Shown here piece by piece: positions 565-52,751 of a DNA stretch of 64,000 nucleotides. The notes beneath the pieces were generated by a model. That model did not search any database. It was not told where the DNA came from and worked only from the letters and a program-made list of their open reading frames with translations. This stretch comes from Desmodesmus armatus (taxonomy: Eukaryota > Chlorophyta > Chlorophyceae > Sphaeropleales > Scenedesmaceae). Position numbers and translations under genes: made by a program. The stretch's first letter is position 1. The number at the start of each line of letters is the position of its first letter. Where the stretch lies: the NCBI GenBank assembly GCA_007449985.2, contig VIIQ02000059.1:62001-126000 (forward strand). The letters are read 5' to 3'.

Positions 565-3500
565 ATGAGGATGATGCAGCTGAACACTTGGGCCTGGGAG
601 CTGGAGGAGGACCTGTGGCAGCAAAAGTAACAGGGTTGGGGTTCACTGGTCCCTACACAGGAGACAGTCTGGAACCAAGGGTGCTTCGAGGTTTGGTGAT
701 TCATTGCATTGTATCAGGCTGCAAGGCTAGGGGCAACACTGTGCTGAGCTGATAAAATGACATGGTCTCAGCAACTGTAACATTGGACCGTCGGATGCGT
801 TTCAGACAAAGCAGTAACCATTAATACTGTAGCTGGCCAAAACGTTCATATCACAGGACAAACGGTGTCGCAACGTTAGTCTGCTTTCTCCAGATTGATC
901 CACAGGACACCAAGGTTGTGTGCCCCTCGACGTCTGCTTGATCCCACTTGGCTTTCTATTCTGATGTTTGGTTTTCTAGGGACAACATTGACAGCGTCAA
1001 GCAAACAGCAGAGGTAGGGGGGTACCCACACTGTCCTGCTGTTGGTCGGTTGTGTCTGGGCATGGCTGATGCTGACAGTCTGTTGCAGGCCAATAACACG
1101 GGAAAGGATGAAGCAAAAGAGAAAGAGAGGTACGTGGCTGGAGCTCTGCGCATGCACCACCCTGTGGTCTTTTGGGGTGGTGGTCGTCCATGCACAACAC
1201 AGACCTCCCGTGCTTGGTGCCCTCTGCTCGCACAGTGCCTTGCCTTGTTGTGACTCTCAATCAAAACTTTGCACTTTTACCACGTCATGCTACTGCCCTG
1301 GCTTGCCTGCCCGCAGTGCTGACAGCCTGACAGCCGGCCTGCCCAGTTTTGGTGGCCTGTGGAGCGTTGCAAAGGCAGTTCAGTCAGCTGTGCAGCAGAC
1401 CACGAATGAGGTCGTGCGCAGTGTGCAACAGACGGACTGGAAAAGCGAGATTGCAGCATTCACGCAGGAAGTTGAGGCAGAGGCACAGAAAGTGTCACAC
1501 ACGGCACAGAAAGTGTCACACAAGGCAGTAGAGGTGGTGCAGCAGCTGCCAGCACAGCTGCACACCAGAACCTCCGAGGTGAGCAGCAGCCAACAGCTTA
1601 GTGTGAGCATAGCACACCGAGTGCATGCAGTTGCTGCAGGCCTGGTGCTGGCATTCATACAGCATGAACACAGCTGCCGGAGCCCTCATGCAGTACGGCA
1701 CATCTCCTTGCGCTAGCAGCAAATGCATGCGTCTGTGGTGGGGTTGAGGCAGCCTGTAAGCTTCAGCGTTACTGGAACACAGCACAACGCCACACCGTCT
1801 GCCTGCAACACTTAATGGTGGGCTGGTGTTTACCTTCTACTCAACCGCACTCAACAGAGCACAACACTAGCCATGCACTGCAGGCATGATGAAAACAGTG
1901 TCTGGCAAAGCACCACCATGCTCCTGCACCTGCAGGAGCACGTCGGGGCAGCCATGTGCTGAGCAAATGCTTTAGTCGCGTCCCACGTGTCACGACTAAG
2001 TGTCAATCCACGCGTTGCGTATATGTGTGCGCGCAGAGTGGTGCAGATGGCTCCAGTGGCGCAGGCGTCAGCCCCAGCAGCAGCAGTGGAGGGGGCAGTT
2101 CAGCGCAGCCCTTTGGCGCAGTCGGCAGCTCCCTCGCCAACTTTGGCAAGCAGCTGATCAGCGGCACCAAGGAGGTCTTCGACACAGTGAGTGACACGTC
2201 TTAGCCGGTACTGTCCTTGCAGCGTCACATGGTCCATGTCTGCATGATAGCCGGTACTGTTTTGGCAGCATCGCATGATTCACACCCGTAGTAAGGTTCA
2301 CACTGCCAGCGCACGTGCTTACACAAGCAACGTGCAGCTGCTCATGTCACTTCCGCGCCTTGGAGCCCCTCCTTTCGCGTGCCACTTGTGCCGTGGCCGG
2401 CATGTTGTCTGCTTCACCTGCAGCACACGTTCGCTAGTGTTACCACTGCCCAATGAATCAAACCGTTGACACAATGTGAAGGAGGATGGTGCAGTTGCCT
2501 TCCTCACACTTGTCACTCTACTCACACTCCTATGGCAACTGCCATCGATCATCGCCGTACCGCTGTCCTGCAGGTGACAGATCTTGTGGAGGGGAGATCG
2601 CTACAGCAGCGCGTGAGGTGCCGCGCTTCGCAGCGGGGGGCAAGGGCAGCGGCGGTGGCGGCCCTTCGGAGGTGGCGGCCCGGCTGGCCAGCAGGCAGCG
2701 GCTGGCTACGAAATACAGCAGGTTTGAGGCGGAGGTGAGCCTTGGGGCCTTGCTGCTGCTGAAGGTGTATGGTGTGTGCAACAGTCAACTGGCTAGGTTC
2801 CGTGCTAGGCTATCAGTGGTGGCGACTGTTTAGCAGGTCTTAGCAGGTTGAAATGGGGAGGGCGTGTTTGGATGAGGATGACCCTTGTGAAGATGTGAGG
2901 ACGCCACATGGCGCATCTCCATCACAGTCCTCAGGGGCATACCAGCCGTCAGTCAGAACATCACACGATTTTGTCAGTCGGCAGCAGCCAAGTCTATTGC
3001 AGGCAGCCAGCGGGTACTTGCAACTGCAGCGCACAGCAAGTCAAATAGAACGCCTTTGCCACGGTTTTGACCGGTGCATCTCCACCCAAGTCCAGATGTG
3101 TGCTGTGGGGGCGCCTGGAGCTTGGTGTGTGCATGTGTGTGCGCCCTGCCCTGCGGCCTGTCCTGCAGGTTCGTCAACACCGCGACTGCATCTGATGTGT
3201 TTGGGGTATTGTACATATACTTGCAGTCATATGTTTTGGGTGCGTGTTCCGCAGGTTGCGTCGATGCAGCGCGACAGTGCCACATATGTTGACGAGCCTG
3301 AAGATGCTGAGGACTTTGCTGCTTGGAGGGGCAGCAGCTTCAGCATGAGCAGCGCACAGCCAGAGATCAACAAGATACTGTCAGGTATGCTCAGCCAGGG
3401 GGTGTCTGTTTTTGGGGGGATGTGGATTGTTGCGCTGCTGAATAGCTGTTCTTTACAGTGCCAAGGGGCTGCTGGAGCTGATTTTTGAGGGCGGGGAGTT

Positions 3501-3899
3501 CCCGGGCCCGGGGGCGGCGCGGGGGGGGGGGGGGGGGGTCATGAGCCCAGGCTAGCGGCAGCAGCTTCAGCATGAGCAGCGCGCAGCCAGAGATCAACAA
3601 GATCCTGTCAGGTGGGACGCGAAGCCTGGGGTGTTTGCAAGCGGACGATGCTGAACGATCTGGGCTGCATTGCATTGTACTGCAGGCAGCACCTGAGCTC
3701 TGGATTGCCTATGAGGTTGTGCACCCTCACCATCTTGGCGGGACCCATGTTGTCGCCCACAGTTGGATTTCTGGCTTTCTTGCTGCTGCTGTGATCATTC
3801 CGCGCACATAAATCCTGCCTTGCATGTCGTGAGCTTACAACTGTCATGCTGCCACTGCCGCTGGCACTCCCAACCCTCCATGCAACATCTGGGGGCGCC

Positions 3900-3941: not shown

Positions 3942-5966
3942 CAGGCAATGCCTTCATGAGTGAGCTGCAGAGTCGTTGGTGCCGCTGCTGGTGGAGAAGG
4001 ATGAGTTCTGGGCTAGATACTTCTACAGGTCAGCAGAGGGAGGGGAGGGGGGGGGGCATATGCGGGTGAAGTGTGTCACTGAGTGTGGGGCTGAGGCAAG
4101 GGGGGCAGGATGAGAAAGGAGGACTTCTAAGCTAGATACTTTTACAGGTCAGATACTTCAATACGGGAGGACAAGGGAGGGAGAGGAAGCAGACGGGAGG
4201 GGGGTGTGCGAGGGAGGTGTGGTCAATGAGGGAGTGTGGGGTCGAGGCAAGGTGCAGGGGGGATCAAAGGTCTGGGATGGATAAGCGTTTACGGGTCAGC
4301 AGGGACGGTGCCCAATGGGGTCAATGGTAGCCGGGTGGGTGGGGGGGGGGGGGGATGAGGTGAAGGTGTTTGTGCAAGGTGAGGGGTGCGTATTTTGGAC
4401 ATGGCAGCCCTTTGTGTCACGACAGCCCTTTGTGCAAGAAGGTGAAGCTGGTTGTGAGTTGCGTGCTGGCTTCATCAGTGCCCACTAGCATCTCCCAGCT
4501 GAAGCGGCATGCTGTGCAGCAGTGCACTCATGTGTATGACATGTGCATGTTCATGCAGTTCTTGGTTGGGAGCCTTGCTTTTGTTGGTGGTTGGGTGACT
4601 CTGGAGTTTCCTGGTGTGCCACCACATGCATTCTGACACATGCTGCCCCTGCCTGCCTGCTTGACCCGCCTGCCTGCTTGCCTGCTTTCCTGCCTGCAGG
4701 CTGCACAAGCTGCAGCAGAAGGAGGAGCAGCGGCAGCAGTTGGCAGCGCGTGCAAAGCAGCTGGATGATGCGTCAGATTTGGGTGGCTGGGACGACGATG
4801 ACTCACCACACGCAGCAGCAGATGCACCAGCAGCAGCAGCAGCGGCGGCGCCATCACAAGCAGCAGCAGTAGTACCAGCAGCAGCAGTTGCTGCAGGGTT
4901 GCAGAGTCATGTGCAGGACCAGCCGGAGCAGAAGCAGCTTGAGCAGCAGGAGGAGGACTCGGAGGTTTTGGCAGCAGCAGCAGCAGAAGGTGCTCAAGCA
5001 GGCGGCAGCAGCAGCACTGCAATGCAGCAGCCTCCAGGGGAGCAGGAGGAGCCAGCAGCTGCCTCAACAGCAGCGAAAGCAGTCCCAGCGCAAGATCACA
5101 CACAAGCCACCACTGCAGCAGCAGCAGCAAGCCAGAGTGAAGATGCTGTGCTGCCACCAGCAGCAGCGGAGCCAGATGCTGCTGCTGCCAGTCAGGCTCC
5201 CGCAGAAGCCAGCACTGCTGCCACTGCTGCTGCCGGCAGCAGTGGCAGCCGCACGGCTTCGGGCAAGGCATCTGAGGATTCATCGCTGCCCAGCACCCCT
5301 GTGAAGGTGGGTGGACTGGTGTGCTGTCGGTTGGTTTCTGAGTGTTGGAGGTTGTCAATGGGGTTGTCTGTTGGTTGGCCAGGTAGATGGTGGTTGTGTG
5401 GTTGCGCATGACCGGAGACTAAAGCATTGCCAGCAACAGTATGCCAGTCTGCAGTACTTACCACCCCCACAGAACCTTGCCACTATGGCTAGTCAGGTTG
5501 GTCTTTGTGTTCGCTGACGCTGCTGCGGCTGTGTGTGTGCGTACATGCGGTGCGTGCGTGAGTGCGTGCGTTCGTGTGTTAGCATAGAGAATACATGTGT
5601 AGCTAGCATATAGTGCACATGCGAGACACCTGCCAACCGAAACCAACATCATCAGGCGCATGTGTCTGTGGTGTCGCTGCCTATGCAGGTTGGCTCTGAT
5701 GCCTCTGATGCTGCACTGGCAACAGACACAGTCAGCGAGGGCAGCGGAGCCACTGCTGCAGCAGCAGCGGCAGGGGGGCAGGCGGCACCACAGGCCCCGT
5801 GGACCCTTGTGGGCGGGTTGGGACAGCAGGCAGCACCTGCAGCAGCAGCAGCAGCGGGGGCGAAGGCAGAAGTGCCGGGCAGTCAGCAGCAAGAGCAGCA
5901 GAAGGCAGCAGCAGCTGCACCAGCGAGGTGAAGTCGGCAGCAGCAGCAGGTGTTGCGGGTGCAAAG

Positions 5967-6004: not shown

Positions 6005-6143
6005 TGGTGGGGATGATGACGATGATGATGATTGGGGTGATGATGCTGATGATGCAGTGGCTGCTGTCAGCAGCAAGGCAGGACCAGCAGCAGCGGCAGC
6101 AGCAGCTGGGGAGGGAGACGATGACTGGGGCAACTGGGAGTGA
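565..6143 (+). CDS. BSDC1: BSD-domain protein, BSDC1 homologue (multi-exon)
   Basis: Exons traced: 565-626, 980-1013, 1089-1129, 1317-1578, 2037-about 2190, about 2574-2734, 3255-3384, 3971-4028, 4700-5306, 5689-6143, about 650 residues. The N-terminal helical part (LWSVAKAVQSAVQQ onward) matches the BSDC1 N-terminus. Exon 7 carries RDSATYVDEPEDAEDFAAW, like the SDPATYCNEPD block of BSDC1. Exons 8-9 encode DEFWARYFYRLHKLQQKEEQ, the BSD-domain signature with its FW and YFYR. The tail is Ala/Gln-rich with an acid/Trp end (DDDDDDDWGDD, DDDWGNWE), also as in BSDC1. The family's biochemical role is poorly known; the BSD fold also occurs in TFIIH p62 and synapse-associated proteins. The start is the first ATG after an in-frame stop at 481. 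The exon 5/6 junction is uncertain. Exon 10 needs one extra base near 5925 to keep frame. Exon 8 has two possible acceptors. Confidence 0.75.
3557..3611 (+). repeat. Partial copy of BSD-gene exon 7 end inside the next intron
   Basis: A 55-nt copy of the end of exon 7 (3330-3384) including the donor GT. Only three internal substitutions are seen. A G-run at 3521-3538 lies between the two copies. Confidence 0.9.
3906..3938 (+). repeat. (CTG)n tract upstream of a 3' splice site
   Basis: About eleven GCT/CTG units end a few bases before TTTGCAG at 3944, in the place where a polypyrimidine tract would normally be. Confidence 0.85.
4036..4353 (+). repeat. Two decayed tandem copies of exon 8 end plus intron, with G-runs
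   Basis: The exon 8 end (GCTAGATACTTCTACAG then gtcag, ending 4028) recurs at 4131-4147 and, more diverged, near 4290-4300. Each copy is followed by similar G-rich intron sequence including GAGTGTGGGG-CTGAGGCAAGG-type blocks. The whole intron looks like three repeats of an exon-edge unit. Confidence 0.7.
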
Positions 6144-6232
6144 AAGACAGGGGGTGTATGAGGGTTACTGGGTGAAGCAGGTGGGGCAAGGGGGGGGCTG
6201 TACTTTTCACACATGCTGCCTGGCACTTTGGC

Positions 6233-6951: not shown

Positions 6952-9900
6952 ATGCAGGAGCAGCAGCTGAGGCAAGCAGCAGGGCTCCTGCTGCAAGTAG
7001 GACACCAGCAAACCCTGGAAGCTTACTTGCAAGCGAGAGAGTCCTTAGGGACGAGCGTGAACGACAATGTGCATGGATCGTTCAGCCTTGGACTGCTCGC
7101 AAGCCTGATCGTGAAGCAGCCTGAACGTGAGTGATTCAGTTACACTTGATAGAGTGCAACTTAGGTTTTGATGTCGTAGGACGGCCCGTGCATTGTGAGC
7201 AATTGGATCAGCCATCAGCAGCAGCAACAGCAGGCCAAATGGAAAAACACCTGCAACGGCAGTGGAGTGTGTGTGGCAGTGCCAGGACAATCTTACCACC
7301 AGCTATGTTGTTCTGGCTTTGTTTGCAGTCACTCAGAGCTTGCTGCTTGCCACATCCGCGCGCCAGCAACACCTTGGACCAGTCTCCTCCCCCCCCCCCC
7401 CCCAAACCGCTATTATGCAGCAGCCATGCAACGAAAAACACATACAAAACTCTGCACACACCCCAGCAACAATTGATTCATACCCGTCCGCTGGCACTCA
7501 CACTGCACTCACCGGCGCACATAATGTGACCCACTGCACCGTGTGTTGTGCTGGCTGCTGCAGTGCGGCGCTTGGAGTCCCTGAAGCAGCTGGGCTGCTC
7601 CTCCATGGTCCCTGCACCAGTATCTACACTCCCCCCCCCCCCACCCCCCCAACCACCCACATACCGCTACGATGCAGCAGTCATCCAATGAACAACAAAA
7701 CACAACCCTGCATCCATACTATGAACTTTCTGAGCAGCTCACGGTCAGCTAGCACTCACACTGTCATCACCGGGCCGACATGTCACGAGTTACTGTGCCC
7801 TGTGTTGTTCTGGCTGCTGCAGTGCGGCGCCTTGAGTCTTTGAAGCAGCTGGGCTGCTCCTCAATGGTACCCGCATACCAGAACGCCACACACAACCGCC
7901 TGCAGCACTCAAGAGGTGCGCTGCCAGCATGTCAGCCCAAAGCATTGTCACAGCATGATGGTGTAAAACAGCACGATGGCAGTCTGCACGTTTCCCCTGC
8001 AGGGAACAGCTGTTCATGCCTAGGATTCCTGGCACTGTTGGCGTGGGCTGAGTGGGCGCAGGGGCTTTTGGTGCTGATATGATCGTGCACAAGAGTTTGC
8101 CAAGCTTCAAAATCGACGCAGGCTGCTTTATGGTCGCTGCCTGTGTTGATATACAGCAAGCCCCTGCCAGGGGCTTGTTGTGGCAGGAGCAGGTGGTTGG
8201 GGGATACCTGCTCCTGCATTCTGGCCCCTGCTCCTACCCTTCTTCCCCTCTCCCACTCTTGTTACCCCGCTCCAGCAAGAAACGTGCAAGTCCCTAGACT
8301 TCTGAGTCAAGTGAACATCTCGCACCAGCACCTCTCCTACCGTTTCATAGTGTTGTTGCTCACCTGGCGTTCAGGTGTAGCCTAGTGCGCACCCCCCCCC
8401 CCCCACCCACCCCCGCACCCTCCCCCCACCCCCATACCCACCCACATACCCCTCCTCCAAACCTCCTCCCCCACTTCTCTGATAGCTTCTCTGTGCGCCC
8501 TGTCTGTGTCGCCTGCAGGTGTGGCTCATCTGTCCTTCAAGTGGGGCCTTATCATAGCACAGCAGCAGCGGGCTGAGGGGCACCCCCCACACGCCTGGCT
8601 GACACCCCTGGACCTGGAGCTACTGGAGCTGGCAGGTAGGCAGGAACCTGGGGTTGTGCAAGAAGATGAAGGCTATACCCTAGATTGTGATTCTGATTTA
8701 GTGACTCTACAGTTGTGGAGGTGTACAGCATGAGCGGCACACCCACCAACGTTCCGGCCAGGTTCAACATACAGCAGCATACCCACCTGCTTCCGGCTAC
8801 ATACGAGATATTCTGTCAATCAGCCCACACAGGTATGTTGTGGACAAGTATAAGCTTACCTAACTGGTGTGATGGTGTTGATCGTTGTGCCTGCAGGACT
8901 GTGCCATGACCTGGGCCATGGTCCTTTCTCCCACGTGTTTGAGGCCTTCATCGTGCCAATGCTGGGCATCAAGGGCTGGTGAGTGGCAAGCACCCCCCCC
9001 CCCCCACACACACACACACAAACACCCCTTCGTATGCACACCCCGCAGTACCGTGCTCGTCAGACTCCCAACACATGTAGGCACTCAGACTGAGCAGAGA
9101 CTTGCTGCCTTGCACCGCATACACCAGAACGTTTTCGACTCAGCACCACTGCTTGCATGTAACGGAGGTACAGCCGTCACACCCTGTCTTGCTGCCGTTT
9201 GTGTTGCTGTCGTGTTGCTGTCGCCACCCGTGCAGGCATCATGAAACGCTGTCATCCCTGGTGCTTCACCACATGCTGCAGCGCCTGCTGACAGAGCTGG
9301 GCCTGACACAGGACAGCACACAGGGCCAGGACAGCACACAGCACAGCACACAGGGCCAGCACGGCATGCAAGACAGCATGCAGGACAGCACAAAGGGCCA
9401 GGTCAGCATGCAGGACAGCACACAGGGCGGGCAGCTGCTGCAGCGGGTGCATGGGGCAGTGACAGACCTGATCAGGGGCAAGGTCTCCACTGGCTACTGT
9501 GGTCACTGGGCGGACAAGCTGTTTGTCATGCTGGTGCGTCAATCCGAATTGACACCTGGGGTGTGGGTGGTGTGTGAGTGTGTGTGTATGGGGGGGGGGG
9601 CTTCTGATGATTGAACAAGGCTGGCGTGTGACAGGTTGAGGTGCCTGCTAGACGGCACCTGGCTGCTGGGGTGGCAGCTTCAAGCAAGCTTTGGGGGCAA
9701 GGACAGCTGCTGATATACATGGGCAATGCGACAGCTGTTGCACAAGCATGAAGAGGTGTGGCTTGTCAGGGTGTAGAAACAACTTGCAGCCTGAGCGGGC
9801 AAGCTTTTCTTCTTCATCAGCTCATCACACCATGCCATGCAGCCCAGCTTTGATACACGACTGTGTGTTCCTTGTGTGATTGTACCAAGCACCATTGCCT

Positions 9901-12900
9901 GTGTTCCCTGGCTGGCATGAGCTCTTTCAGCCACAGTCAGCAAGGTGTGACATGAAGGTCATGCTGTGAATGTCGTGCAGATTGTGGCGAGCGACCTTGA
10001 TGCTGATAAGATTGACTACTTGCTGAGGGACATGCAGATGGCAGGGGTGCAGGAGCGGCCAGAGCTGGCAGATGTGCTGGAAGGACTTGGGGGTCGGGTG
10101 CCGGACTATGTGCAGCTGATCAACAACTCCAAGGTCAGTGTTCTTTTTGTTGCTTTTTCCACAGGCCTAGGGTGTGAAACGCATGCTTTGCTGTTTCTGG
10201 ATGAGCTGCTGGAAAAAGTAGGGGGCCTGGTGCCGGACTATGTGCAGCTGATTGACAACTCCAAGGTGGGTTGTGGAGATACATACAAGAAGATATGTAC
10301 ATGAGATACTTATAGTTACATACTCATGAACACCTTGAGCGGGGGAGTTTTGTAGTGTTTGTTGTGTGCAAGGGCGTCCTCACAGCCTCCAAGGGGTGTA
10401 GTATGTTCAATCTGAAGTTGAGGTGTGTTGCAGGACGCATGCTTTTTTGGGACCGGCTGCTGCTAGCTGGCTGGGTACGCCAGGGGGCGGGGGGTAGCAT
10501 GTGTGCCGTGCCTTGCTCTAGCTATACAGTTGAGCATACAGGCTGATCCATCCTGCTGGACATGCACACCTGCTCTTTGTCACCTGCCCTCACCACTACA
10601 GCAATCAGGTGCCCTCACCACAGCACCAGGCATCAACATTGCTGTCACGCGACTGAATCCACTGCCTCACCGCAATCTGCTGCTGACTCTTGCAGCTTGT
10701 TGAAGGAGTCAAATTCTGACTCAACGGAATTCTCTGCCTCGCCGGCTGTTTGCTGGCCTATTGTTGCAGCTTGTGGACGGGGTCATATGCTTTGCCGGGG
10801 AGGACCAGCCACTGGTGCACACACTCTGCCAGCCACCCTCACAACCACAGCATCCACTTGTATTACGCTCAACTGAACTCACTGCCTCACCTGCCATTTG
10901 GTGCTTACTGTCGCAGCTTGTAGACGGGGCCAGTTGCTTCGCAAAAGAGGACCAGCCGCTGGTGCAGCAGCTGTACCGAGCCCGCTACCTCCTGCACCAA
11001 CACGTCTACCAACACTGCGCCGTGAAGGCAGTGGCCCATAGATGCAACCACTCTGCCAACCCCCCTCACAATCCCCACACCACAGCATCCACCTTCAATA
11101 TTATCCATGTCGCTGACTCAACTGTTTCACTGCCTCACCTGCTCTATATGCTGCTTGCTCTTGCCTTGCTTTTACAGCTTGTAGATGGAGCCATATGCTT
11201 TGCCAGTGAGGACCAGCCACTGGTGCAGCAGCTGTACCGGGCCCGCTACCTCATGCACCAACATGTCTACCAGCACCCAGCTGTGAAGGGCTTTGAGCTG
11301 GCAGTTGCCCACGTGCTGCAGCTCACTGCCCCATGGCTGTCGCTGGAGTGGCTTCAGGAATTCAAGGCTGTGACAGTTGACCCGGTCAACCCTGCTGACC
11401 CTGCAGCATCCAAGCGCTTGTGAGTAAAGAGACGACGGACGGGGGATGGTTTGAGTACATATCGGCATCGACCCTGATCGTGCATTGTTGCTTGGATCAG
11501 CCTGGTATCCTGCAGGCTCTCTATTGCATCATGAGCCGCTGATTGGCACTCAGCGACGGTCATGCATTGGAAAGCCTGCAGGACGCCAGGCCAAACCAAG
11601 CAAGTTTGTTTTGAAGCAGCGCACATCCTGAGGAAGTGTATCTTGACCTGACACCTTCGTTGCCAGCAAACAGCGAGGTATTGTTTGGTTTATGCTATGT
11701 TTTGTGCAGTGTGCTGCGGTTTTGCGCTCTGCGTGACTCCCTGCTTGACGAGGCTCGCCGCGTGGCGCTGCACAACGCCGACGGGCACCCCGCCCTCGCA
11801 AGGGCGCTTGCCATCCTTGACCAATTTGACGCTGGCGAGACTTACAGCTATGTGGAGGAAGAGGACGGCAAGGGCTGCATGGCGGGGCACCCTCAGCTGT
11901 GTCAGGTGGGCTGGGTTGTGGTGGTTGTGCTGGGGTGTATGGTGTTGCAGGTACACAATGGAAGAACTCAGCTGGCGGTGCATGATAAGCAGCGGCAGGT
12001 CTGGTGCTCAGGGGCTTCAATGAAAGGCTGGGCTCTATACATGAGGCAAAGCATTGTGCATGCATTGGTGTCAAGGGAGGTCCAGCCTGAAAGCTGTGGA
12101 TAGCTGAGCCAATTACTGTAACTGTAACTGTAACGGTTACTGTTATATCAAAGAATGAGCAGCCTCCTGACGTTACCCTGTCTGCTGATGTCTGCCATTT
12201 GCAGCCGGAGGCGGCAGCGCAGGCGGTCATCCAGGCCCTTGGGCGCCACAGCGGCAGCGTGTTCAGCAGCAGCAGCAGCAGCAGCGCTGTGTTGGCCCTG
12301 CAGGCGTCAGACATCAGGGTGGTGTACTGCAAGTTTGACCACTGCAAGTGAGTCAGTGGGATTAAAGTGTTTTCCCACCCTCCGCACGAACACGCCAACC
12401 TTCGCACTGCCTGTTGGTTTGGCTGTTGGTGGCAGGGCGCTTTCTTTCACTGGCATGTGCCTTTTGTGTGTTGCAGGTGTTGGGATGCAGCTCCACACAC
12501 CTTCAGCTCACACGCATGCGCGCAAAGGTTGGGGTCTGAGTGTTTTACTCACAATCGCCTTTCTCAATGGCGAAACTGTCCTGCTGCTGTGCTGTTACCC
12601 CTGCAGCAAGGACCTGGACCCCCTGCCTCTGTTGTGGCTGTGGTCCGAGGGTCATGATGGGCAGCTCACCAAGGCCACCGGCAGCTGGACCGCAGGGGAC
12701 AAGCCGCCTGTCTACAGGACACACAGGGTGAGCAACACACGACCACTGCATGCAACGTTCCTCCACCCAAAGAAGTGGGGCTCAATTATATCTGCTGTGC
12801 TGGCTGTTCAGAAACAGTGCTAGCCTTTTCTTGTCAGCACTTCTGCCAAAGGCCCTGTGTGGCAGGGCGTTTCAAACCTTCCAGTGCAGTGCCTGCACTT

Positions 12901-14382
12901 TGGAGCCACTGGCATCGAAATGCAACGCCCTGTCTGTCCGACATCGGATGGCATAGTTGCTGACGGCCTGCTTCCTGGGGGCTTACCCCTGTATGGATGA
13001 CCAACCGTGTATGCTGCAAGATGCAACACATGAACAAACTCTTACATCACTGCTGCAAGATGCAACAAGTAAAAGCACTCTTACATCACTGCGCATGGCT
13101 GTCACAATGGACTGCTGGTGTTGTGTTGGCCTGCCTCTGCTGCCTGCAATGCTGCCTGTAGGCGCGTGTGTACCTCACAAAGCTGCTGTGCAGCACACCC
13201 CTGTTGCACCAACCTTGGCTTCTGCAGTGCCTGGCACAATTCAGCATGGTAGCTTCTAATGATTTGATTGCATGTGCCTGCTGTCCTTGCCAATGCTGCC
13301 TGTAGGTGCGTGTGTACCTCACAAAGCTGTGCAGCACACCCCTGTTGCACCAACCTTGGCTTCTGCAGTGCCCGGCACAATTCAGCATGGTAGCTTCTAA
13401 TGGTTTGATTGCCTGTGCCTGCTGTCCTTGCCAATCCTGCCTGTAGGTGCGTGTGTACCTCACAAAGCTGTGCAGCACAGAGGCTGAGGAGGCAGAGCTC
13501 ACTGCTGCCCTGCAGCAGGCCCTCACGACAGTCCTGCAGGACATTGCACCAGCAGACAAGGTGGACCCTGCAGCTGCAGCAGCAGCAGCAGCAGCAAAAG
13601 AGGTGTGTGACAGTGAAGAGGGAGAGGAGCTGATGCTCACTCAGCGCCTGCCAGCAGCAGCAGAAGATGCAGGAGACGACGGTGCAGAGACTGGTCTGCC
13701 TCAGGCAATGGACTTAGACACAACAGCACCAGCAGCAGCAGCAGATGTATGCTCCACACCAACACCACCTGCAGCAGCAGCGGCAGCGGGGGATATGTAC
13801 CCTGACGATGATTACTGGCAGCAGCTGAGCAGTCAGGCAGCAGAGACTTCTCAGCTGCCGTGCACACCAGCTCCCAAAACACCAGGGGGCCCGCTGCCGC
13901 GCTGGTCGTCCCTGACACCGTGCAGTCAGCTGGGCAGCCAGGTGGCAGAGACACTGCAGCAGCAGCAGCAGCAGGAGCAGCACAGGTTGCCTTTTGGGAT
14001 GCAGACAGAGCAGCAGCAAGAGCAGCAGATGATGCCGTTTGGGGTGCAGGCAGGGCAGCAGCAGGTGTTGTCCGTAGGTCAGGATGCAGGGGAGGTTGGC
14101 AAATTGCTCCCCGGCAGCAGCTTGGAGCCTGCAGCAAGCAGCTACATCGGTGTGGCTGCTGCTGCTGCTGCTGTTGACGTTGTGGACCTTACTGAATCAG
14201 AGCCAGCGGTGCCGCCAGGTCAGCACTCACATGAGGAGGTTGTAAAGTTCTGGCAGGACAAGTTGGGTGGGGCCCAGAAGGGCAAGGAGGCAAACCCCAG
14301 CAAGCGGGCTGCAGGCAGCCGACCCCAGGTACAGCTACAGACCAGCAAGAGGCCCAAGAGCAGCAACGTGAAGCAGCACTAG
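6952..14382 (+). CDS. SAMHD1: SAMHD1-type HD-domain dNTP triphosphohydrolase homologue
   Basis: Eleven exons: 6952-7126, 7823-7915, 8519-8635, 8897-8978, 9236-9533, 9981-10133, 11178-11419, 11710-11905, 12205-12347, 12607-12727, 13447-14382. Together they give one uninterrupted frame of 851 residues, strong support for the model. SAMHD1 cleaves dNTPs to deoxynucleosides and triphosphate. HD metal ligands are visible: His in NRLQHSR (about residue 87), HD in [12 protein letters not shown] (about 130), and Asp in [11 protein letters not shown] (about 264; human D311-K312-Y315-D319 pattern). [14 protein letters not shown] and the [12 protein letters not shown] block match the human sequence in order, as does the [16 protein letters not shown] region. 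No SAM domain is seen at the N-terminus. A short-repeat insert sits in exon 5. The last exon adds about 290 low-complexity Gln/Ala residues with a [10 protein letters not shown] motif and basic SKRPK. The first exon start is tentative. Confidence 0.88.
7387..7868 (+). repeat. Tandem duplication of SAMHD1 exon 2 start with upstream intron, bounded by C-runs
   Basis: Unit 1 (about 7387-7627) and unit 2 (about 7628-7868) both begin with a long C-run. They then share CCGCTA, TATGCAGCAG/GATGCAGCAG, a CACTCACACTG block, TGTGTTGT-CTGGCTGCTGCAG and the exon start TGCGGCGC-TTGAGTC. Only the second unit continues into the full exon (7823-7915). The homopolymer marks both unit boundaries. Confidence 0.88.
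8157..8217. repeat. Two perfect hairpins in SAMHD1 intron 2
   Basis: Arms CAAGCCCCTG (8157-8166) and CAGGGGCTTG (8168-8177) flank a single C. Arms GCAGGAGCAGGT (8183-8194) and ACCTGCTCCTGC (8206-8217) flank an 11-nt loop. All pairs are perfect. Confidence 0.95.
9309..9431 (+). repeat. Minisatellite inside SAMHD1 exon 5
   Basis: About seven imperfect units of GACAGCACACAGGGCCAG type encode a run of [10 protein letters not shown] peptides. It is in frame and sits between the [18 protein letters not shown] helix and the [13 protein letters not shown] segment, where human SAMHD1 has only a short linker. Confidence 0.85.
10208..10265 (+). repeat. Partial copy of SAMHD1 exon 6 end and donor
   Basis: Repeats the exon 6 end (about 10083-10133, coding [12 protein letters not shown] then GT) as [12 protein letters not shown] followed by GTGGGT, about 130 bp downstream. 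The copy could serve as an alternative donor region or be a relic. Confidence 0.88.
10692..11035 (+). repeat. Three upstream partial copies of SAMHD1 exon 7
   Basis: Acceptor plus exon start (CAG then CTTGTxGAxGG) occurs at about 10695, 10770 and 10917 before the full exon at 11178. The copy at 10917-11030 retains most of the exon coding ([20 protein letters not shown] onward, to CAVK); the earlier ones break off sooner. The intervening intron pieces (CACTCTGCCA, CACAGCATCCAC, ACTGCCTCACCTG) are also repeated. Confidence 0.9.
13155..13480 (+). repeat. 142-bp tandem repeat carrying the start of SAMHD1 exon 11
   Basis: Units beginning near 13155 and 13298 are about 142 bp each and nearly identical. 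Each contains CCTGTAG then GTGCGTGTGTACCTCACAAA, i.e. acceptor plus first codons of the last exon. The third occurrence at 13441 runs on into the true exon at 13447. The two upstream copies keep a plausible 3' splice site. Confidence 0.92.
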
Positions 14383-19416: not shown

Positions 19417-21030
19417 TCACGCCTGCAGCTCCACAAGCAGCAACACTACCAGCAGCGCAACTGCAACGTAAAACAGCAGGCCGGGCGCCACCAGCGATGC
19501 TGCCAATGCTGCGGCCGCCGTGGAGACCACCACACATGCAGCTGTGCGCAAGGGCTGGCGTGCATGTTCCAGCGCACCCTGCTGCTGCTTGTGTGCCGCA
19601 GCCATGCTGACAATCAGGTGCTGCAGTGCTGCCTGCTGCTTGTCGAGATCCACTGCGTCACTCTCAAGCCACATGTCAATCAGTGCCCTGCACACCACAC
19701 TGCCTGCTGGCTGCATGCCATGCTTCAGAGCAGCTTTGGCAGCTGCTGCATTGCTCTTCGCAGCCGGCAGCAGCAGCCGCAGCATCAAACTCTGCTTGGT
19801 GCTGCCATGTAACCCCGGGTCTCTGCTGTCGACAGCCATACAGCTGAGCGGGCCATGTGGTCAGCACCAGCATCTGTGTCAAGCAGGCAGTGCTGCAGCA
19901 GGCACTCAATGGTGGGCATGTGGCCTGCTGCTGCAGCCATGCACAGCGCACTGTGGCCGTCCGAACCCGGTGCATAAGCTGCCGCCCCAGCGTCAAGCAG
20001 CAGTTGCACCACGGCATTGTGCTGGCCCTTGACTGCCAGGTGCAGGGGGGTGTCATCACCATCCCCCAGTGCAGCATCTAAGGGGGCGCCATGGGCAATC
20101 AGCAGCTGGGCAATCTCTATGCTGCCGCGTTCCGCTGCAACATGCAGTGCTGTGTATCCGTCTTCAGCAGCCGTGCCTGGTGTTGCTCCTGCTGCTAGAA
20201 GCATCCTGACCATGTCAGCGCGACCATCGACGGTGGCTATAATCAGGGAAGTGTCTCCTGAGACTTCCGCAGCATTGACTGCAGCACCAAGTGCCAGAAG
20301 CTTCTCCACAGCCGCTGCATTGCCATGTGTGATAGCATAGTGCAGCGGGGTCTGGTGGTTCTCTTGAACCGTGTTTGCAGATGCATGAGCTGCCATCAGC
20401 AACGCAATGCACTCAGTGCAGCCACCTACCGCTGCGTCGTGCAGTGGTGTGCAGCCCAGGCCATCTTGTGCTGACACGTCTGCCCCAGCAGCAATCAGCA
20501 CTTGCAGCACGGCTGAGTGCTTGTCTGAGGATGCTTAGTGCAGGGCTGTCTGGCCCAGACCGGCCGGGTCACCTGCGGCACGGGTGTCTGGTGCTGCTCC
20601 CGCTTTCAGCAGCATTGTCACTACTGCTGCTTCCCCAGCTTCCGCGGCGACATGCAGAGCTGTATAGCCCTTGCTGTTCAGTGCGTCCACAGCTGCCCCC
20701 TTGCTGAGCAGTAGCTCCACAATGTCTGGCTGTTCCTCTGCTGCGCAGTGCAGGGGTGTCTCACCCCACTTATTCACTGCATGTACTGATGCACCTTTGC
20801 TCAGCAGCAGCAGGGCAACGTCTGTGCGCCCCATGGTGGCTGCTGCATGCATGGCTGTTTGGCCGTTGGGGTCCAGGGTGTCTGGTGCTGCTCCTGCTTT
20901 CAGCAGGATTGTCACAACTGCTGCTTCCCCAATTTCTGCAGCTATATGCAGAGCTGTCCAGCCCTTGCTGCTCACTGCGTCCACAGCTGCCCCCTTGCTG
21001 AGCAGCAGCTCCACAATGCCTGGTTGTTTC

Positions 21031-21065
<35 letters not shown>

Positions 21066-36520: not shown

Positions 36521-38477
36521 TCAGCCGCTGTACCTACCCACTAGCTCTGGTGGTGGCAGCTCATCCATTATATCAGGATGCTGCTGCAGGTACTGCCTGA
36601 TAGTCGTCACCCTGTCTGCTAGGTACGTATTGTCCAAAAAGCTGTCATACGCCTCAGGACAGAACCCTTTCGCGGCCAGCACACAGTGCCGCAAGTATAC
36701 TCGGCAGGGCAGCACATTGTTGCTCCATACGCTGTCAATGCCATGCACTCCCCAGCGCCGCTGCCACTCTTCTGGTGGGCAGCGAGTGGCCTTGTAGTGC
36801 TCGTCCGTGTTGGCACCACACAATACCTGTGTGAAAGACACCGCACAGCAGAGAAGCAGGCAGTCAACGTTTTCAGCACAGGCACAGACAGCAGCATGCA
36901 GACACGGCCACATGTAGCGGTGTAGTGCCCGTCAGTGTTGGCGCCACACAGCACCTGTGTACTGGACACCGCAAGAGCAGCATGTGTGGCTGCATGTGTG
37001 GCTGACAAGTGACACCATCCTGAGCTGTAGAAGGAGTAGCGCTGGCCGAGTGCACATGCTACAGCTGCTGCCCTGCAGTTTGCATGCTTCCAAGACAAAG
37101 CAGCACCCTGATGCTGGCAGCTGCTGGTTACAAGTGACAGGCAATAACCAAAGTGACACCCTGTTACAACACAAAACAGCTGCAGTAAGAGTTAAACAAG
37201 CACTCACCGCAAGCCTTTCAGCTGCTGTTTTGCCTGCCAGGTCATATGGCTGCACTGCAAGGAACCTGAACTCGTGCTCGCGTGCGATGAATGCTGTAAC
37301 ATTGTCAGGATTGAAGGGCACCTCAAACAAGCTGACAACCAAGGAGGCGTCACTGCTGCCGCCATTGCTGCCGTTGCCGCTGCCATTACCGCTGTGCTGG
37401 CTGCTATCGGGGGTGCTATCGGGGGTAGGGCTGTTGCTGTCTGAGCTGCTGCCTGGCTGCTGCTGGCTTGTTTGATCACTGCTGCTACTGGTGCTGGTGT
37501 TGGTCACTGGCTCGCAGGACAGGCTGCCAATCTCACGCTGCATGCATGGTCAATCACAACAGCAGCGGGGCACACTTCAGATACATCCAGTCATGACAGC
37601 ATTCACAAAAGCTTACTGGCATACAGTACACACACTTGCTGGTGTGCTGCTGATGTGGCAGCACACAGCTGCTGCTGCCCTGAGAAGTGACAAGTATGTG
37701 CCTCACAGCCCCATCAAGGCACAGCATGTCACTCTAGGTTGGCATGGTCTGCACAAGTGCCCCTAGCTGCTGCTGTGTACTCACAGTGGCAGCATTCGCA
37801 ATGCCTCTCTGGAAGAAGATGTCTGCAGTGTGTGCAAACACCCGCCTGAAGCCATACAGCTGCACAGCGAGCAGAACGGAGCAGGCCACACAGCTACGTA
37901 AGTTGCTGCATGTGCTGGCACCCGGCTAGTATGGTGTGCCTTGTGATGGGTGATGGGTTTTGCAGTGGTGAGGAAGCAGCAAAAATTCAACCAGCAGTAC
38001 TGTAAACACGTACAGGCTGTCCTGCCGTGTGAACTTGGCCACTGCTGTCTCATCTCATCGTACTGCTGGTGTAGTTGGTACTACTGGGCTGCTGCAACTA
38101 GTAGCTGAAGTAGCTGGTTTGGTACCTACTCACCCGCCCAGGTCTGAAGTTTTGCAGGTTGGGGAAGGTGGTTTGTGCACTGCGCTCTGCATGCAACACA
38201 CATGCACATTGCTGTGAGTGTTCCGCAGGTGCTGCACTTCGCAGTGCTGCACCCTGTTGCAATCACTCTGACACCATATGTGCTGCTACCTGCACTTACC
38301 TGATAACAAAGAGCCAAAGCCAGCAACAGTCATGAGCCCAGACCCCGCATCCAGTCCCGTGAAGTGATCGTCCAGTTCAGTCCCATGCTGCAACGAAGGA
38401 GCTGTTTGGGCATGTATTACCCTTGACTGGCTGAGAGATTGTACCCTGACCCTGTGTTGTATAGGTGAAGCCATGAT
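36521..38477 (-). CDS. Gamma-glutamylcyclotransferase-like conserved plant/algal protein
   Basis: Five minus-strand exons: 38477-38300, 38186-38134, 37859-37785, 37537-37208, 36826-36521, in continuous frame for 313 residues. Exons 1-2 join to GFGSLLSERSAQTTFPNLQ, exon 3 gives FRRVFAHTADIFFQRGIA, and exon 4 gives REIGSLSCEP and FIAREHEFRFLAVQP. Exon 5 gives GIDSVWSNNVLPCRVYLRHC, FLDNTYLADRVTTIRQYL and ELVGRYSG. The FGSLLS start resembles the substrate loop of gamma-glutamylcyclotransferase/BtrG-fold proteins, but the rest is typical of an uncharacterised plant-type family. Catalytic activity is therefore inference. A Ser/Asn/Gly-rich insert lies in exon 4. It is divergent from the methyltransferase gene, with 688 bp between start codons. 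Confidence 0.8.
36904..36960 (-). repeat. Partial copy of last exon start in the upstream intron
   Basis: On the minus strand CACAG then GTGCTGTGTGGCGCCAACAC, a copy of the start of the exon at 36826 (CACAG then GTATTGTGTGGTGCCAACAC). It codes LCGANTDGHYTAT versus LCGANTDEHYKAT, then diverges. Confidence 0.88.
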
Positions 38478-43890: not shown

Positions 43891-46800
43891 ATGAGACTCT
43901 CTCAGCCAACGAACGTGCGGTGCCCTGCCGGTCAGCGCCAAACAGCGGTGTTGAGGTCCTCCAGGCGAGTCAGTTCTGTGATTTTCGTCAACCACGCATT
44001 TTCGCAGCAGGCAGATGGTCTGACACATATCTTTGCTTTACTACAGGCCTGCAATTGTTAGCAGGAGGCGCGTGTGTGTCACACAAGGTGAGTAACTGAC
44101 CTAGATCTGATGGGCAGCACCACAGTCAGAGAGAATCCATGCTGATTCCCTGCTCATTGGTGCTGTGCAGCCACACTCAAGCTTGGATCAAAGCGGGGTG
44201 GTGACTCATCTGGCAGTGAGGCAGCAGGAGGCCTGAGTGGACTGCTGGGCACGATCACCAGGTCGCTGAGCAGGCAGGGCAGCAGGCCAGCACAAAAGGA
44301 TGAGAAGACGGTGAGTGGCGGTGGTGTTGGTAGTCATGGGGGGCCTTAGGGTAGTTACATCGGAAATAATGCAGGCAGATGCAACTAGATGAGCTTCCTA
44401 TGGATTTGGTGACGAGCAACAGCAGGCAGGCAGGGAGTGTTTCTGGGTTTCGAACAGGGTGCATTGTTGGGTGTGCTTGAACGACAGCAGCTCAAACCAT
44501 TAGCAAACTGTAAAAAAAACATTACGTGGCTGCTGGGACAGGCAATGCAGGCTTGCAGCTGCAGCACCGGAACACCATTGCCTGGTATCTGGTGACACGC
44601 TTGCCCGCGCAGTGCTGAAGGGTGTGCCACAGAGTGGCACAGCAGCTCTGCACCAGCTGTGGGGCGCTCGGGGCAGGGAGGTGTCGGCTGGGGCACAGTA
44701 CACAAATCACTACATTCATGTTCGTCATACCCATGTTGGCTGTTGCTGCAGGTGTTTGTTGCTGGCGCCACAGGGCGCCTTGGGGCACGCGTGCTCAGGT
44801 AATCAGCTGAGAGGCAGCTGGCAGTTGTGACGTAGGATTGTGATGCAGCCACCCAGTTTTTGCGCTGGACCTCTGTCACTGGTCAGATCATATGCAGCTG
44901 CAGCAGCCTGAGGAAGAGCACTCCTCAGTATGCAGCATTTCAGGGGCAGGTGTCGTTGCAACTGCAACGCACGGAGAATCACAGCTGCTGTGAGGCGCAG
45001 CACGCATCAGCATACATCACCAGCAACTGCAGCAGTTGCCAAGCTCGTGTTGTCCTATGCTGCGCTGTGTCGTGCTGTGCCGTGCTGTGTCCTGTTACAG
45101 GGAGCTGCTGGCAGCTGGTTTCAAGGTCCGTGCAGCAGCGAGGGATGTTGACCAGGCGGAGGCCAACACTGACATTGCTGTGCAGTTTGGCCTCATTGCA
45201 CCAGACCAGCTCAGCAGGCTGACCTGGGTGGAGATGGACCTTGACGAGCCTGACAGCATCCGGCCAGCTATCGGAGGAGCAACCAAGGTGTGTTTGTTTG
45301 GAGCAGTGGGAGGGGGGGTGTAAAAGTAATGTGTGTGAAGGGTTGGGGAAAGGGGGGGGGGGGGGGCATGTCGAGCAAGGAGGGTTCGGTGAAGGCCCAA
45401 CAGCTTGCCCATTGGGGGCAGGGGGGGGGGGGGGGGGGGGAGGGGGAGGGGGGGGCTGCCAGACCTGGGTGGAGATGGACCTTGACGAGCCTGACAGCAT
45501 CAGGCCAGCAATTGGAGGAGCAACCAAGGTGTGTGGGTGTGTGGGTGTTTTTTGGGGGGGTGATCAGTGATGGGGGAGGAGGGGTGGGATACAGGGTGGC
45601 GCGTGCAGGGGGGGGGGGGGGGGGTTGGGTCACATGGGGTCTGGCTGAGGAAGAAAGGGTCAAGGTCCAAGCTCAGCAGCTGGGCTCTTTTGGGGGGTCC
45701 CTTCAGCTAGAGGAAAGGGCCGCATCCCTGCAGCTGGTCAGTCGCTGAGGTGCACATATATCAGCTGCATGGGCGGGAGGGGATCAAGAGCATGCAAGGA
45801 GGGAGGGAAGGGTGTGTGGGCGTCAACTCAACACTCAAGGAGGCGAGAGACAATGCTGCGTTCAGGGCGGGAAAGAATGGCCAAGGATGGGGGGCAGGGG
45901 TTGAAGATCACATCAAACCCTGATCTGCAGGCAGGGAGCAGGGGAAGGGGTTTTGGGGACCTCAGGACGGAATTGAGCAAGAGAACACAGGCCACCACGG
46001 AGCCGGCATCTGCAGCTGGGTTTGATGGAAGGCGGCTGGGCGGCAACCAACTGGCAGCAGCAGCAGCAGCGTCACTAATGTTGCTGGGATGCAGGGATCA
46101 GAGGAAAAGGGATGGCAGTGGGGCTGCCACGGCAGCAACAGCAGTTGGGTCAAGTCAAACTTGTCTGCAGCTCTGCACAGCTAGGTGCAGCTGACAGCTA
46201 TGATGGGGTGTGGAGTACGCCAGTACATGCCCCCCTTGGCGAGTCAGCCACAGTGACACAATCCAACCTCCGTGATGTGTGGGTGTGTGCGCCCGTGATT
46301 TGTGGGTGTGTGCGCCACAGGTGATCAACAGTGTGGATGTCGCTGAGTCAGCCACCCTGACACACCTGAAGCCTTCTTGTAATGGTGTATGAGGCTGAGG
46401 CTAACTCGATCTCTGTGTGTGCCCCGTCGTGTGCCTTGTCATGTGTGCATGTGCCCCTCAGGTGATCAGCTGTGTTGGTGCCCCCGAGTCAGCCACCCTG
46501 GACCCCAGTGCACCCCGCCGCATCGATGGTGACGGCAGTGTCGCGCTGGTGGAGGCTGCAGCAGCAGCAGGTGCGAGGCTGGAAAGGGAGGGTGGAAAGA
46601 TGCACATTAACACATCATGCATGGGTCTACCCGCTAGATCCTGGCTTCAATCCCTTCTCAAGGGGCGATGCACCTCCGCATATCAAGTTGTGCCTGCCGT
46701 TTGATGTAGCGCGTAACCTTGCCCAGTTGCGTATTGGTTCAGCCCACCTTGAAATAGAACAGGGCCGTAAGCGAAGGGTCTCTGTGCCCCGTGCTGACCG

Positions 46801-49800: not shown

Positions 49801-52751
49801 GGCGTGGGTGTGTTATGATCAATTGCGTGGAGGTTGTGGCGGAGACCACCGCGCCTGCACTGGGCCTGAAGACTCTGCTGGAGAGGCAGCAACTGAGATC
49901 ACAAAAGGTGGGTGGAATGTGCTGTGTGTGGTTGGTGCGGGGGGGGGGGGGAGCTGGACGGCAGCAGATATGTTAGATTGGGGTCAACAGCAAGTGATGT
50001 CACCAAACAGCACTCTTTGTTTACTGCAACTGGCAATCACTGCTGCTGCTGCTGCTGCTGCTGTACCGTGTGTGCATGTATTTGTGTCCTGTGTTCGTGC
50101 AGGAGGATCAGGAGGAGCTTGCTGCTGTTGAGGCTGAGGCCCGCCAGGAGTTGAGGGAGGCACAGCAGGCACTGGCAGAGGCACAGGAGGCTCTGGCAGT
50201 CACCAGCGACAAGGTGAGCAGACATGGATAGCAGTGTTATGGACTTGCACCTCTTGCAACAGTCTGTGGTTGGTGTTGTTTGACGCTCCAGCAGCTGCCG
50301 GGACTCAGAGATGTGTGTGTGTGGGGGGGGGGGGGGGGTGGGGTGGGGGGGGGCAGCTGGGATGGCCGGAACCGGAGGGGGGCAGGTCGTGGAAAGTGGG
50401 GAGGGGTAAGGTGCAGACAGCACTGCAGCCATTGGCAGAGGCACAAGAGGCTCTAGCTGTCACCAGCAACAAGGTGGTACCTCTCACTCACTCAACCTCA
50501 CTCACTCCCTGCATACTGCAGGTGTCCAGCTCAATGAGTCGCTGAAGGAGGCCAAGCCACCCTCACAGCGAACACTATGTTTGGCTCACCGCTTGCCTTG
50601 CTCACCTTACTCAATCTCACTCTCCCCCCCACCCACCCACCCACCCACCCACCCACCCACCCACCCACCCACCCACTCCTCAATGACCTGCAGGTGTCTC
50701 AGCTGAATGAGTCTCTCAAGGAGGCCAAGTCGGCTGAGAAGGAGGTCAGGGCTGAGGTGGCAGGCGTGCTGAGGGAGGGACGCGCGGCACAGCAGGCACT
50801 GCAGGCAGCAGAGGCAGCAGCAGACAAGGCGGTGAGTGTGTGGGGGGTGGGTGGGTGGGGGGTGGGGAGTGATTTATCTGCATGTGTGTGGGGGGGGGGG
50901 GGAGCGTGGGCTGGACGGCACAGCAGGCACTGCGAGGAGCATAGGCAACAGCAGGGACGCCGGTCAGTCACTTTGGGGGGGGGGGTGCGGGGGCATGCTT
51001 GTGGGTGCATGGCTTGATGGGGAGGGGCCCTGTTGAGTACCTAGTTTGTAGGGCACATCACGTTTTGCTCTGCACCATCATCCAGAAAGCAGCAGCAGCG
51101 GCAGCGGTGGCGGCGGCAGCAGTGGAAGTAGGCGCACACCGCATGAAGGGTCGGCATTCACAGCCTGCTTGACTGGCTACTGCACGCTGGCTTGCGTGGG
51201 TCTCTCTCATGCTGCGCTGCTGTTGTGTTTCCATGCTGCCATTGGTCTGCCTTCATATGCCGGGATGCTGCTGCTGGTGCCGTGCTGATGCTGTTGCCGT
51301 CTGATTGTCTGCATACCGTGCTGTGCTGTGCTGTGCTACGGTGCCCGTATGTCCTCACATGCCTGTCAGGAGTCTGCTGCTCATGCTGGAGGCTGCCTGG
51401 TATGACTGCTTACTAACACACTATGCTGTGCTGCGCTACGCTGCCCCTGCTTCGCCTGTATGTCTCACAGGCCCGTCAGGAGTCTGCTGCTCGTGCTGTG
51501 TTGGAGGCTGCTAAGAAGGCAGGTGCTGCTGGTGAGCTGCTGAGTCAGCGGGACCTGCAGCAGCTCTTCCAACAGGCAATGAACCCACCAAAGGAGCAGG
51601 CAGCACCAAAGGTGGGCACAATGCACAGGGGTTGGGGGGCGGGGGGGTGGGGGTCAGAAACGTGGGGTGCCCGAGGGGTGTGGAGTGGGGGAGCATCAGG
51701 CATTTGGCAGGGGGTGAAGAATGTAAAAGGGTAGTCAACAGGCAATGAACCCACCAAAGGAGCAGGCAGCACCAAAGGTGGGCACAATGGACGGTTGACT
51801 GCATGGCTGCATCAGAGGCCCGGGGTATTGGGCAGATGGTAGGGGCTCGGGCAGCAAGGATGTTGGTCACACTTTTTGTGTGATGGTGCTTGAGCGCATG
51901 CAAGGGCACAGCAGCATCATGGCATTGGTATGTGGAACCTCAGCAGCCAGGCAGATTGCGTGTAAACGGTGGTTGGCCCGCCTTTCAATCTGTTTTGGCA
52001 ACACCCCAACCATAGTTCAAAGTCACACGAGCAATCCTCGAGCACCTTTTACCCCACCCCACCCTTTTGTGCCACCCACAGGCTGCCTCCCCGGTGCCCT
52101 TCGGTCTGTTTGGCTCCCGCCCCACCACCCCTGCTGTCCAAGAGGAGGAGGAGGAGGAGGAGGTTCAGGTGGCAGCCGCACCCGCGCTGCCATTCGCAGG
52201 ACTGTTTGGCGCCAAGCGGGCTCCTGTGCAGGTGGGTGGATTGTGCTTGCAGCCGCGTGTGTGGAGGGCAAATGTTTGTTTTTTTTGTTGGGGCTTTCGT
52301 GTGCCTGGTGGTGTCCGTGCGTGGGGGGGTGGGGAGGGGGGGGGGGGCACCCGCCCTGCCTTTTGCAGGACTGTTTGGCGCCAAGCTGGCACCCGTTCAG
52401 TGGGTGGCTTGTGCTTGCAGCTGTGTGTGTGCAGGCCGGGATGTTGGTTTCTTGTAAAGGCTGTTGTGTGCCTTGGGGGTGTCAGGGAAGGGGGGGGAGA
52501 GGCATCCACACCAGCGCTGCCTTTTGCTGGACTGTTTGGCTCCAGCGGGCACCTGTGCAGGTGGGTAGTCTTGTCATGCCAACTCCAAAATGAGAAGGTA
52601 GCTGTGCGGTTGAGCTCAAAATGTATTGCTTCACCGAGAGGAACAGCAGCAGGTCTTGAGGAATACTTAACCTGCTTCATGTGGGTGCTTAGGCGATTTA
52701 CCGCATCATATCATGCAGCTACGGCTTGCGATTGCACGCTGACTACCTGTG

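Follow-up and report, generated by a model that had tools for sequence, protein, structure and literature searches.

Exon-edge copies with coding-like divergence lie in tandem within introns of Desmodesmus armatus and possibly derive from a diverged homologue

The introns of the green alga Desmodesmus armatus raise the question of why partial copies of exon edges stand beside the exons themselves, and where such copies come from. The window analysed here is a stretch of 64,000 nucleotides (contig VIIQ02000059.1, positions 62,001 to 126,000, forward strand) of an assembly of 115.8 Mb in 831 contigs, with contigs of up to 1.6 Mb (GCA_007449985.2), in which an earlier note had described such copies in four genes (BSD-, SAMHD1-, cyclotransferase- and Tic62-like). 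Most of the copies examined appear, from their codons, to read as working protein code and not as decaying debris. Our best reading, to which we give a probability of about 0.38, is that breaks at G-runs within introns were repaired from a diverged homologous chromosome, the repair being anchored in the conserved exon.

A blastn comparison of the window against itself (E ≤ 1e-3, with a second run at E ≤ 1e-4 and other settings) revealed a direct copy at all 16 places listed in the earlier note, 100–410 bases away, which bears out its claim of at least a dozen copied exon edges (Table 1). Its statement that the copies include the splice site agreed with the retention of GT in 21 of 22 donor-side copies and of AG in 17 of 20 acceptor-side copies. 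Being direct, nearby and crossing a splice site, the copies resemble exon–intron boundary tandem duplications in these respects, and we infer that the assembly is correct and that the copies were genuinely inserted, locally and in direct orientation. At offsets of up to 500 bases, the window contained 24 direct versus 0 inverted pairs. In particular, a series of direct pairs spanned 10652–11289, pair starts were placed at 13147/13291(/13432), where the acceptor-side copies (13147..13445) are recent, and the direct pair around the copy at 51343 was placed at 51321/51421.

The same orientation prevailed over a total of 21 sequences, namely the window and 20 further stretches, one of them plastid. 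These presented 105 direct versus 3 inverted pairs at offsets of up to 500 bases, 21 versus 2 at 500–1000 and 11 versus 7 at 1–5 kb (pairs not viewed individually), the direct excess fading beyond 1 kb. The plastid stretch (L009, 30% GC), which had no local pair, was excluded after this count; the 30% GC contig carries frames that we take to be atpB-, tufA- and ccsA-like. Its nearest named relatives are Scenedesmaceae (66% identity for ccsA), in keeping with a chlorophyte in or close to this family. Moreover, exon-edge arrays were found in CPSF73 (stretch L021), where one exon 3′ edge appeared in five units and another in three, and in BMS1 (stretch L015), with several donor-side and acceptor-side copy families. 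Together with the local direct pairs, these arrays support the presence of such copies elsewhere in the genome. Furthermore, in an out-of-sample set of eight stretches, picked by the AGGTGNGT...G12 pattern alone as the first listed place on each of eight contigs, exon-edge copies were found in three (L034, L035 and L038, the last by splice-like consensus alone). Some local direct pairs were not exon edges, looking instead like coding repeats (L011 and the ankyrin-like genes of the window), a repeat family (L016) or copies of intron only (L021 2365/2599/2903). When two arrays were searched for dispersal of the introner or transposable-intron kind, matches lay solely at the array itself among the best candidates scored.

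Exons were delimited manually, with open frames, the splice consensus and alignment to proteins as guides, and codons were compared in 42 copies of 27 families (753 codons), a non-random set hand-picked by eye for showing copies. Outside this count stood, in the window, the 3′-end copy at 6234, the degenerate copy near 10,695 and the coding repeats at 20582–21316 and 56023/56179. The same applied, in other stretches, to the degenerate copies near L021 1,290 and L015 6,551, to L038 (no frame set), to the remaining local pairs of L015 and L021 without exon-edge assignment and to all pairs of the other stretches among L002–L020, whose exons are unannotated. A total of 126 synonymous and 48 non-synonymous codon differences separated copies from exons, a synonymous share of 0.72 (0.61–0.82 by bootstrap, with the family and not the copy as the unit). 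Simulations on the same codons gave 0.25 if the copy alone evolves freely and 0.39 for a constrained exon and a drifting copy (maximum of 1000 simulations, 0.497). Substitutions at codon positions 1, 2 and 3 numbered 36, 20 and 138, respectively, while identical alignments read in the two wrong frames yielded shares of 0.10 and 0.07; two BMS1 copies encode serine by AGC versus TCT. Synonymous to non-synonymous counts were cleaner outside the window (74:17) than inside (52:31). Comparisons between copies, with no exon body on either, gave 49:33, which is indicative only, as several alignments enter the intron; a lower share is expected where both copies have drifted. Periodicity scored free of any frame in 98 of the 111 local pairs, those with at least three substitutions, pointed the same way, with a sum of 283 where none of 500 permutations exceeded 228, in a set that contains real coding repeats. 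In the best-fitting simulated history, the copy was unconstrained for some 10–20% of the time since separation, and frame-breaking indels (49817, 50516 and CPSF73 unit 3) and one stop (4116) were present among the copies.

Tandem duplication with nothing but neutral decay thereafter is extremely unlikely. Five of the 27 families fit it (6 synonymous and 18 non-synonymous differences), but it is rejected for the whole set, barring an error of alignment or selection, the other 22 families having 78 and 14, respectively. The earlier note had interpreted the copies as short tandem duplications at homopolymers; plain duplication and drift does not suit the set because 138 of the 194 substitutions fell at third positions, and intron growth would be at most a by-product of the copying. 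Since drift after ordinary duplication is unlike these data, the copies either diverged while functional elsewhere (in another haplotype, or in a strain placed here by the assembler) or were kept functional in place (by exchange with the exon or by use as exons).

Between these options, the evenness of the synonymous divergence is informative. Nearest copies differed by 0.163 synonymous differences per codon, approximately 0.2 per synonymous site (0.746 such sites per codon), and this divergence was homogeneous over the 27 families (dispersion 23.5, 26 degrees of freedom, P = 0.60), the non-synonymous divergence being uneven (P = 0.0006). Single, nearest and outer copies showed levels of 0.157, 0.168 and 0.177, respectively. 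A spread as small as that observed was obtained in 0.5% of runs simulated with uniform ages and in 0 of 5000 with exponential ages, although, with small counts and hand-picked families, the evenness is a lead rather than proof. Import from a diverged homologue is favoured by this evenness and by a precedent in the hypervariable fungus Schizophyllum, where exons have an excess of crossovers and introns a deficit (PMC4209137). The process would start with a break or fork stall within an intron, often at a G-run, and the broken end would invade a homologous chromosome that carries a diverged haplotype. With introns too unlike between the two, invasion would anchor at the conserved exon edge, and a short stretch with the exon edge, the splice site and some intron would be copied. 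The end would then be rejoined at the G-run, leaving the homologue's exon edge in tandem with the resident one, so that copies would arrive synonymously diverged with code and splice site intact, and some would decay later. In worms, tandem duplications arise by end-joining of failed strand-annealing intermediates (PMC8654963). The wider picture of a hypervariable alga, with intron-diverged haplotypes, G-run breaks repaired via the homologue's exon edge and introns serving as a fossil archive of allelic diversity, is less likely than not.

The intron parts of the copies bear on another explanation, in which ordinary intrachromosomal tandem duplications at G-runs keep exchanging their exon parts with the functional exon through gene conversion and repeat contraction. 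Any copy in which a codon or the splice site is faulty would be purged upon recruitment, so that silent copies would stay coding-like, as donor cassettes do. Such continuing exchange is a serious rival, if a somewhat unlikely one. Introns following donor-side copies aligned like old tandem duplications in 8 of 32 comparisons (z ≥ 13), mostly at 69–78% identity and once at 91% over 64 columns, some CPSF73 z-scores being inflated where the compared stretch reaches the next unit's exon. In the window, one of nine such comparisons was recognisable (52231, first copy) and eight were not. What has been kept is thus the exon portion with its splice site. The kept splice sites, a slight clustering of unchanged codons (P = 0.035) and BMS1 units that pair near-identical introns with synonymously different exons also speak for exchange. 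It would, however, be expected to yield varied ages, yet synonymous divergence is homogeneous; were the same exon the sole source of conversion, non-synonymous differences should be more numerous (simulated synonymous share 0.39), and outer copies were not clearly more decayed (16/58 vs. 11/59 non-synonymous, P = 0.28). The silent conversion-donor cassettes of Borrelia vls reportedly serve the antigenic variation of a protein; the arrays described here are likewise presumably silent and near a functional copy but, unlike in vls, the amino acids that the copies encode are mostly unchanged.

Closeness to homopolymers was evaluated for runs of at least six G by comparing copy boundaries with other positions of the same introns (20,000 draws). 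Donor-side copies started within 20 nt of such a run in 14 of 22 cases, against 5.2 expected (P = 5e−5, the floor of the draws). Within 5, 10, 20 and 30 nt, the numbers were 8, 11, 14 and 15, with 2.9, 3.7, 5.2 and 6.2 expected (P from 0.004 to 5e−5). The ends of acceptor-side copies showed no significant closeness to C-runs at the distances considered (1, 4, 5 and 7 of 20, with 2.3, 3.1, 4.4 and 5.6 expected; P = 0.29 within 30 nt). The claim that poly-G and poly-C runs bound the copies therefore found support for G-runs at donor-side starts and none for C-runs at acceptor-side ends. Likewise, of the interpretation as duplications at homopolymers, local direct duplication and donor-side G-runs are supported, C-runs are not, and plain drift does not fit the set. 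At some junctions (GGGCACACTG, GGGCATGATG in CPSF73), the G-run continues directly into a GGG of the exon, as microhomology would predict. In a coarser test, pairs were shifted within their own locus. For the 62 pairs of three run-rich loci, G-runs preceded the second copy in 17 and followed the first in 14, and C-runs preceded the first in 14 (shifted means of about 4), while runs were rare in the other loci (49 pairs). In the run-rich loci, the excess of G- and C-runs thus extended beyond the junction to several flanks of the pairs, so part of the closeness reflects intron context. The number of local direct pairs did not correlate with run density per stretch (Spearman 0.17, P = 0.47, n = 20).

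Donor-side breakpoints at G-runs, which are hard to sequence, would also suit an assembly or strain-mixture chimera, in which exon ends belonging to other haplotypes or strains would have been joined in tandem at G-runs, where reads fail. This rival is serious as well, though distinctly unlikely. The divergence looks allelic and is even over genes, and close relatives exist in sequence collections (a search with the 30% GC contig gave matches of 95–96% over its whole length and of 100% over 58%). On the other hand, the lack of any N in the 265 kb examined, contigs of up to 1.6 Mb and a 41-base G-run suggest long reads spanning the arrays, which makes a chimera less likely. Moreover, most of the direct excess lies below 1 kb, a smaller scale than is usual for haplotype duplications in assemblies; decayed copies occur; and no second close locus of the CPSF73 or Tic62-like exons was present among the scored genome-search candidates, which included one 41% paralogue of each. 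An artefactual origin would mean that read-level checks are needed wherever algal assemblies show exon-edge duplications at G-runs, as well as for the gene models derived from them.

The use of the copies as functional alternative exons, spliced in to replace the original edge, has to be weighed against the proteins. The Tic62-like gene was identified through Pfam NAD_binding_10 and relatives named TIC 62, and the SAMHD1-like gene through similarity to PDB sequences; BSD and cyclotransferase are names given by the earlier note only, and Pfam showed no domain in the SAMHD1-like, BSD-like, cyclotransferase-like or reverse transcriptase (RT)-like pieces. When the Tic62-like exons were joined with the copies skipped, one open frame of 327 aa resulted, collinear with the relatives' proteins, which have no extra segment where the copies sit. 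The CPSF73 exons correspond to residues 202–396 of the solved CPSF73, with equal length. Coding constraint, kept splice sites and an AG upstream of some copies (by eye) would be consistent with alternative exons, but the relatives' proteins, the indels and the stop in the copies argue otherwise. In addition, no donor was seen by eye in the exon body where the copy boundary falls, so that a copy cannot substitute for the edge. Mutually exclusive exons are complete, with acceptor and donor, whereas these copies are one-sided by eye, with the L035 copy as a possible exception. The use of the copies as alternative exons is very unlikely. An intron of the Tic62-like gene (46600–47100) also contains an open frame with a CxxC...HxxxxC pattern and no Pfam hit, which we take to resemble the end of a non-long-terminal-repeat reverse transcriptase.

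Several points weigh against import from a diverged homologue. No second haplotype was observed, the within-species divergence required (about 0.2 per synonymous site) is extreme, and CPSF73 has five mutually diverged units, which therefore require more than two haplotypes. The synonymous share depends on trimming, rising through 0.53, 0.66, 0.72 and 0.78 from the loosest to the strictest of four alignment settings, and ages within 0.5–1.5 of the mean reproduce the small synonymous spread in 16% of runs (P = 0.16). The five families compatible with plain neutral decay, the acceptor-side ends with their C-run result and local direct copies free of any exon edge (L021 2365/2599/2903) count in the same direction. 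Furthermore, 4 synonymous codon differences separate BMS1 units whose introns are near-identical (174 matching columns, 2 substitutions and 4 gap columns), which is unexplained by import alone. This mixed array seems to point to exon-limited exchange after arrival, and import and exchange with the exon may both operate. If import is real, a single genome would reveal the way in which recombination deals with highly diverged homologues, with intron debris as a record of past alleles and with introns gaining length and spare splice sites near G-runs.

Literature searches aimed at the phenomenon, among open-licence PMC papers, gave no description of it, and some known systems are alike in part. 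In the intron gain in potato RdRp (PMC4974935), the duplicate was local and direct, as here, and took in the acceptor with the adjoining intron end and exon 5′ edge. It is one case with ten nucleotide differences, and its new intron is used in mRNA; here, dozens of copies were found, with coding-like divergence and a donor-side G-run boundary. In the internal-duplication work cited in PMC3443670, the duplication also supplies splice sites, but the duplicated stretch yields new exons or introns, whereas here the coding frame skips the copies. The polymerase-theta tandem duplications of C. elegans helq-1 mutants after failed strand annealing (PMC8654963, which also studies G-quadruplex (G4)-induced breaks) are direct, as here, with junction microhomology. 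They span about 100 bp to 10 kb (median about 1 kb) and are copied from the same sequence, unlike the mostly 100–500 bp, diverged copies of this natural genome.

Table 1. Exon-edge copies, originals and adjoining G-runs in the window (syn, synonymous; non-syn, non-synonymous codon differences)
Feature	Position	Strand	Basis
BSD-like gene, original exon 3′ edge and donor	3327..3386	+	blastn, frame checked
G-run preceding the BSD-like copy	3521..3538	+	sequence
BSD-like copy of 3327–3386 with GT; 2 syn, 0 non-syn	3554..3613	+	
Copy of exon edge 3997–4033; stop inside (TGG>TAA); 1 syn, 3 non-syn	4116..4152	+	E ≤ 1e-3 run only
Copy of the gene's last coding stretch 6079–6214 with stop codon	6234..6378	+	
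SAMHD1-like gene, copy of intron end, acceptor and exon 5′ edge (original 7641–7875); exon part 6 syn, 0 non-syn	7386..7616	+	
Copy of exon edge 10075–10135 with donor; 2 syn, 4 non-syn	10207..10267	+	
Upstream copies of intron end and 5′ edge of exon at 11178; two counted, third degenerate near 10695	10652..11040	+	
Two acceptor and exon-edge copies before exon at 13447; period 141–144, about 96% including intron	13147..13445	+	
Cyclotransferase-like gene, copy of exon 5′ edge 36793–36845	36921..36973	-	E ≤ 1e-4 run only
Tic62-like gene, original exon 3′ edge and donor	45221..45293	+	
G-runs preceding the Tic62-like copy at 45462	45421..45455	+	
Tic62-like copy of 45221–45293; 3 syn, 0 non-syn	45462..45534	+	
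Decayed copy of exon 5′ edge 46442–46500; 1 syn, 5 non-syn	46301..46359	+	E ≤ 1e-3 run only
Copy of exon 3′ edge 49611–49707 with donor; 5 syn, 3 non-syn, one indel	49817..49913	+	
Copy of exon 3′ edge 50160–50216 with donor; 4 syn, 3 non-syn	50420..50476	+	
Copy of exon 5′ edge 50688–50729; 3 syn, 0 non-syn, one indel	50516..50556	+	
Copy of exon 5′ edge 51454–51511; acceptor AG gone; 0 syn, 2 non-syn	51343..51396	+	E ≤ 1e-4 run
Copy of exon 3′ edge 51570–51626 with donor; exon part identical, intron likeness stops after about 12 bases	51736..51792	+	
G-run where copy 2 of the 52178 edge starts	52336..52347	+	
Copy 2 of exon edge 52178–52231; 6 syn, 1 non-syn; donor GT gone	52347..52435	+	
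G-run where copy 3 of the 52178 edge starts	52490..52497	+	
Copy 3 of exon edge 52178–52231; 5 syn, 3 non-syn, one indel	52501..52574	+	

Other features were noted in the window and the other stretches. In BMS1, the exon ..AAGGCATAAAGGG.. breaks the frame on the coding strand at L015 5514–5533, through either a sequencing error or a broken gene, and a BMS1-like fragment on contig C267 is open there. This fragment, a 289-bp stretch 78–81% like the BMS1 coding exon (L042 2580–2868, C267:41079–41367), is a dispersed copy of coding sequence; the C267 match was considered as a second BMS1 or homeologue and rejected, as it lies in a different gene, LRR-like by eye. Between two CPSF73 exons, L021 2365–2993 holds three direct copies that are 79–89% identical, with no exon edge recognised. 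At L034 463–942, some 140 bases from an exon-edge copy, a 60-base unit is repeated in tandem about eight times, with 95–99% identity. A dispersed repeat covers L016 2000–3500 (contig C250), with copies of 97–99% on at least 12 contigs and an older group of 70–72%. In the window, ankyrin-like (by eye) genes or pieces lie at 22140–23900, 25370–25903, 32742–34520 and 63470–63792, 67–79% identical and 3–41 kb apart, and a GCT-rich array of 635 bases with 9- and 21-base periods occupies 60331–60965.

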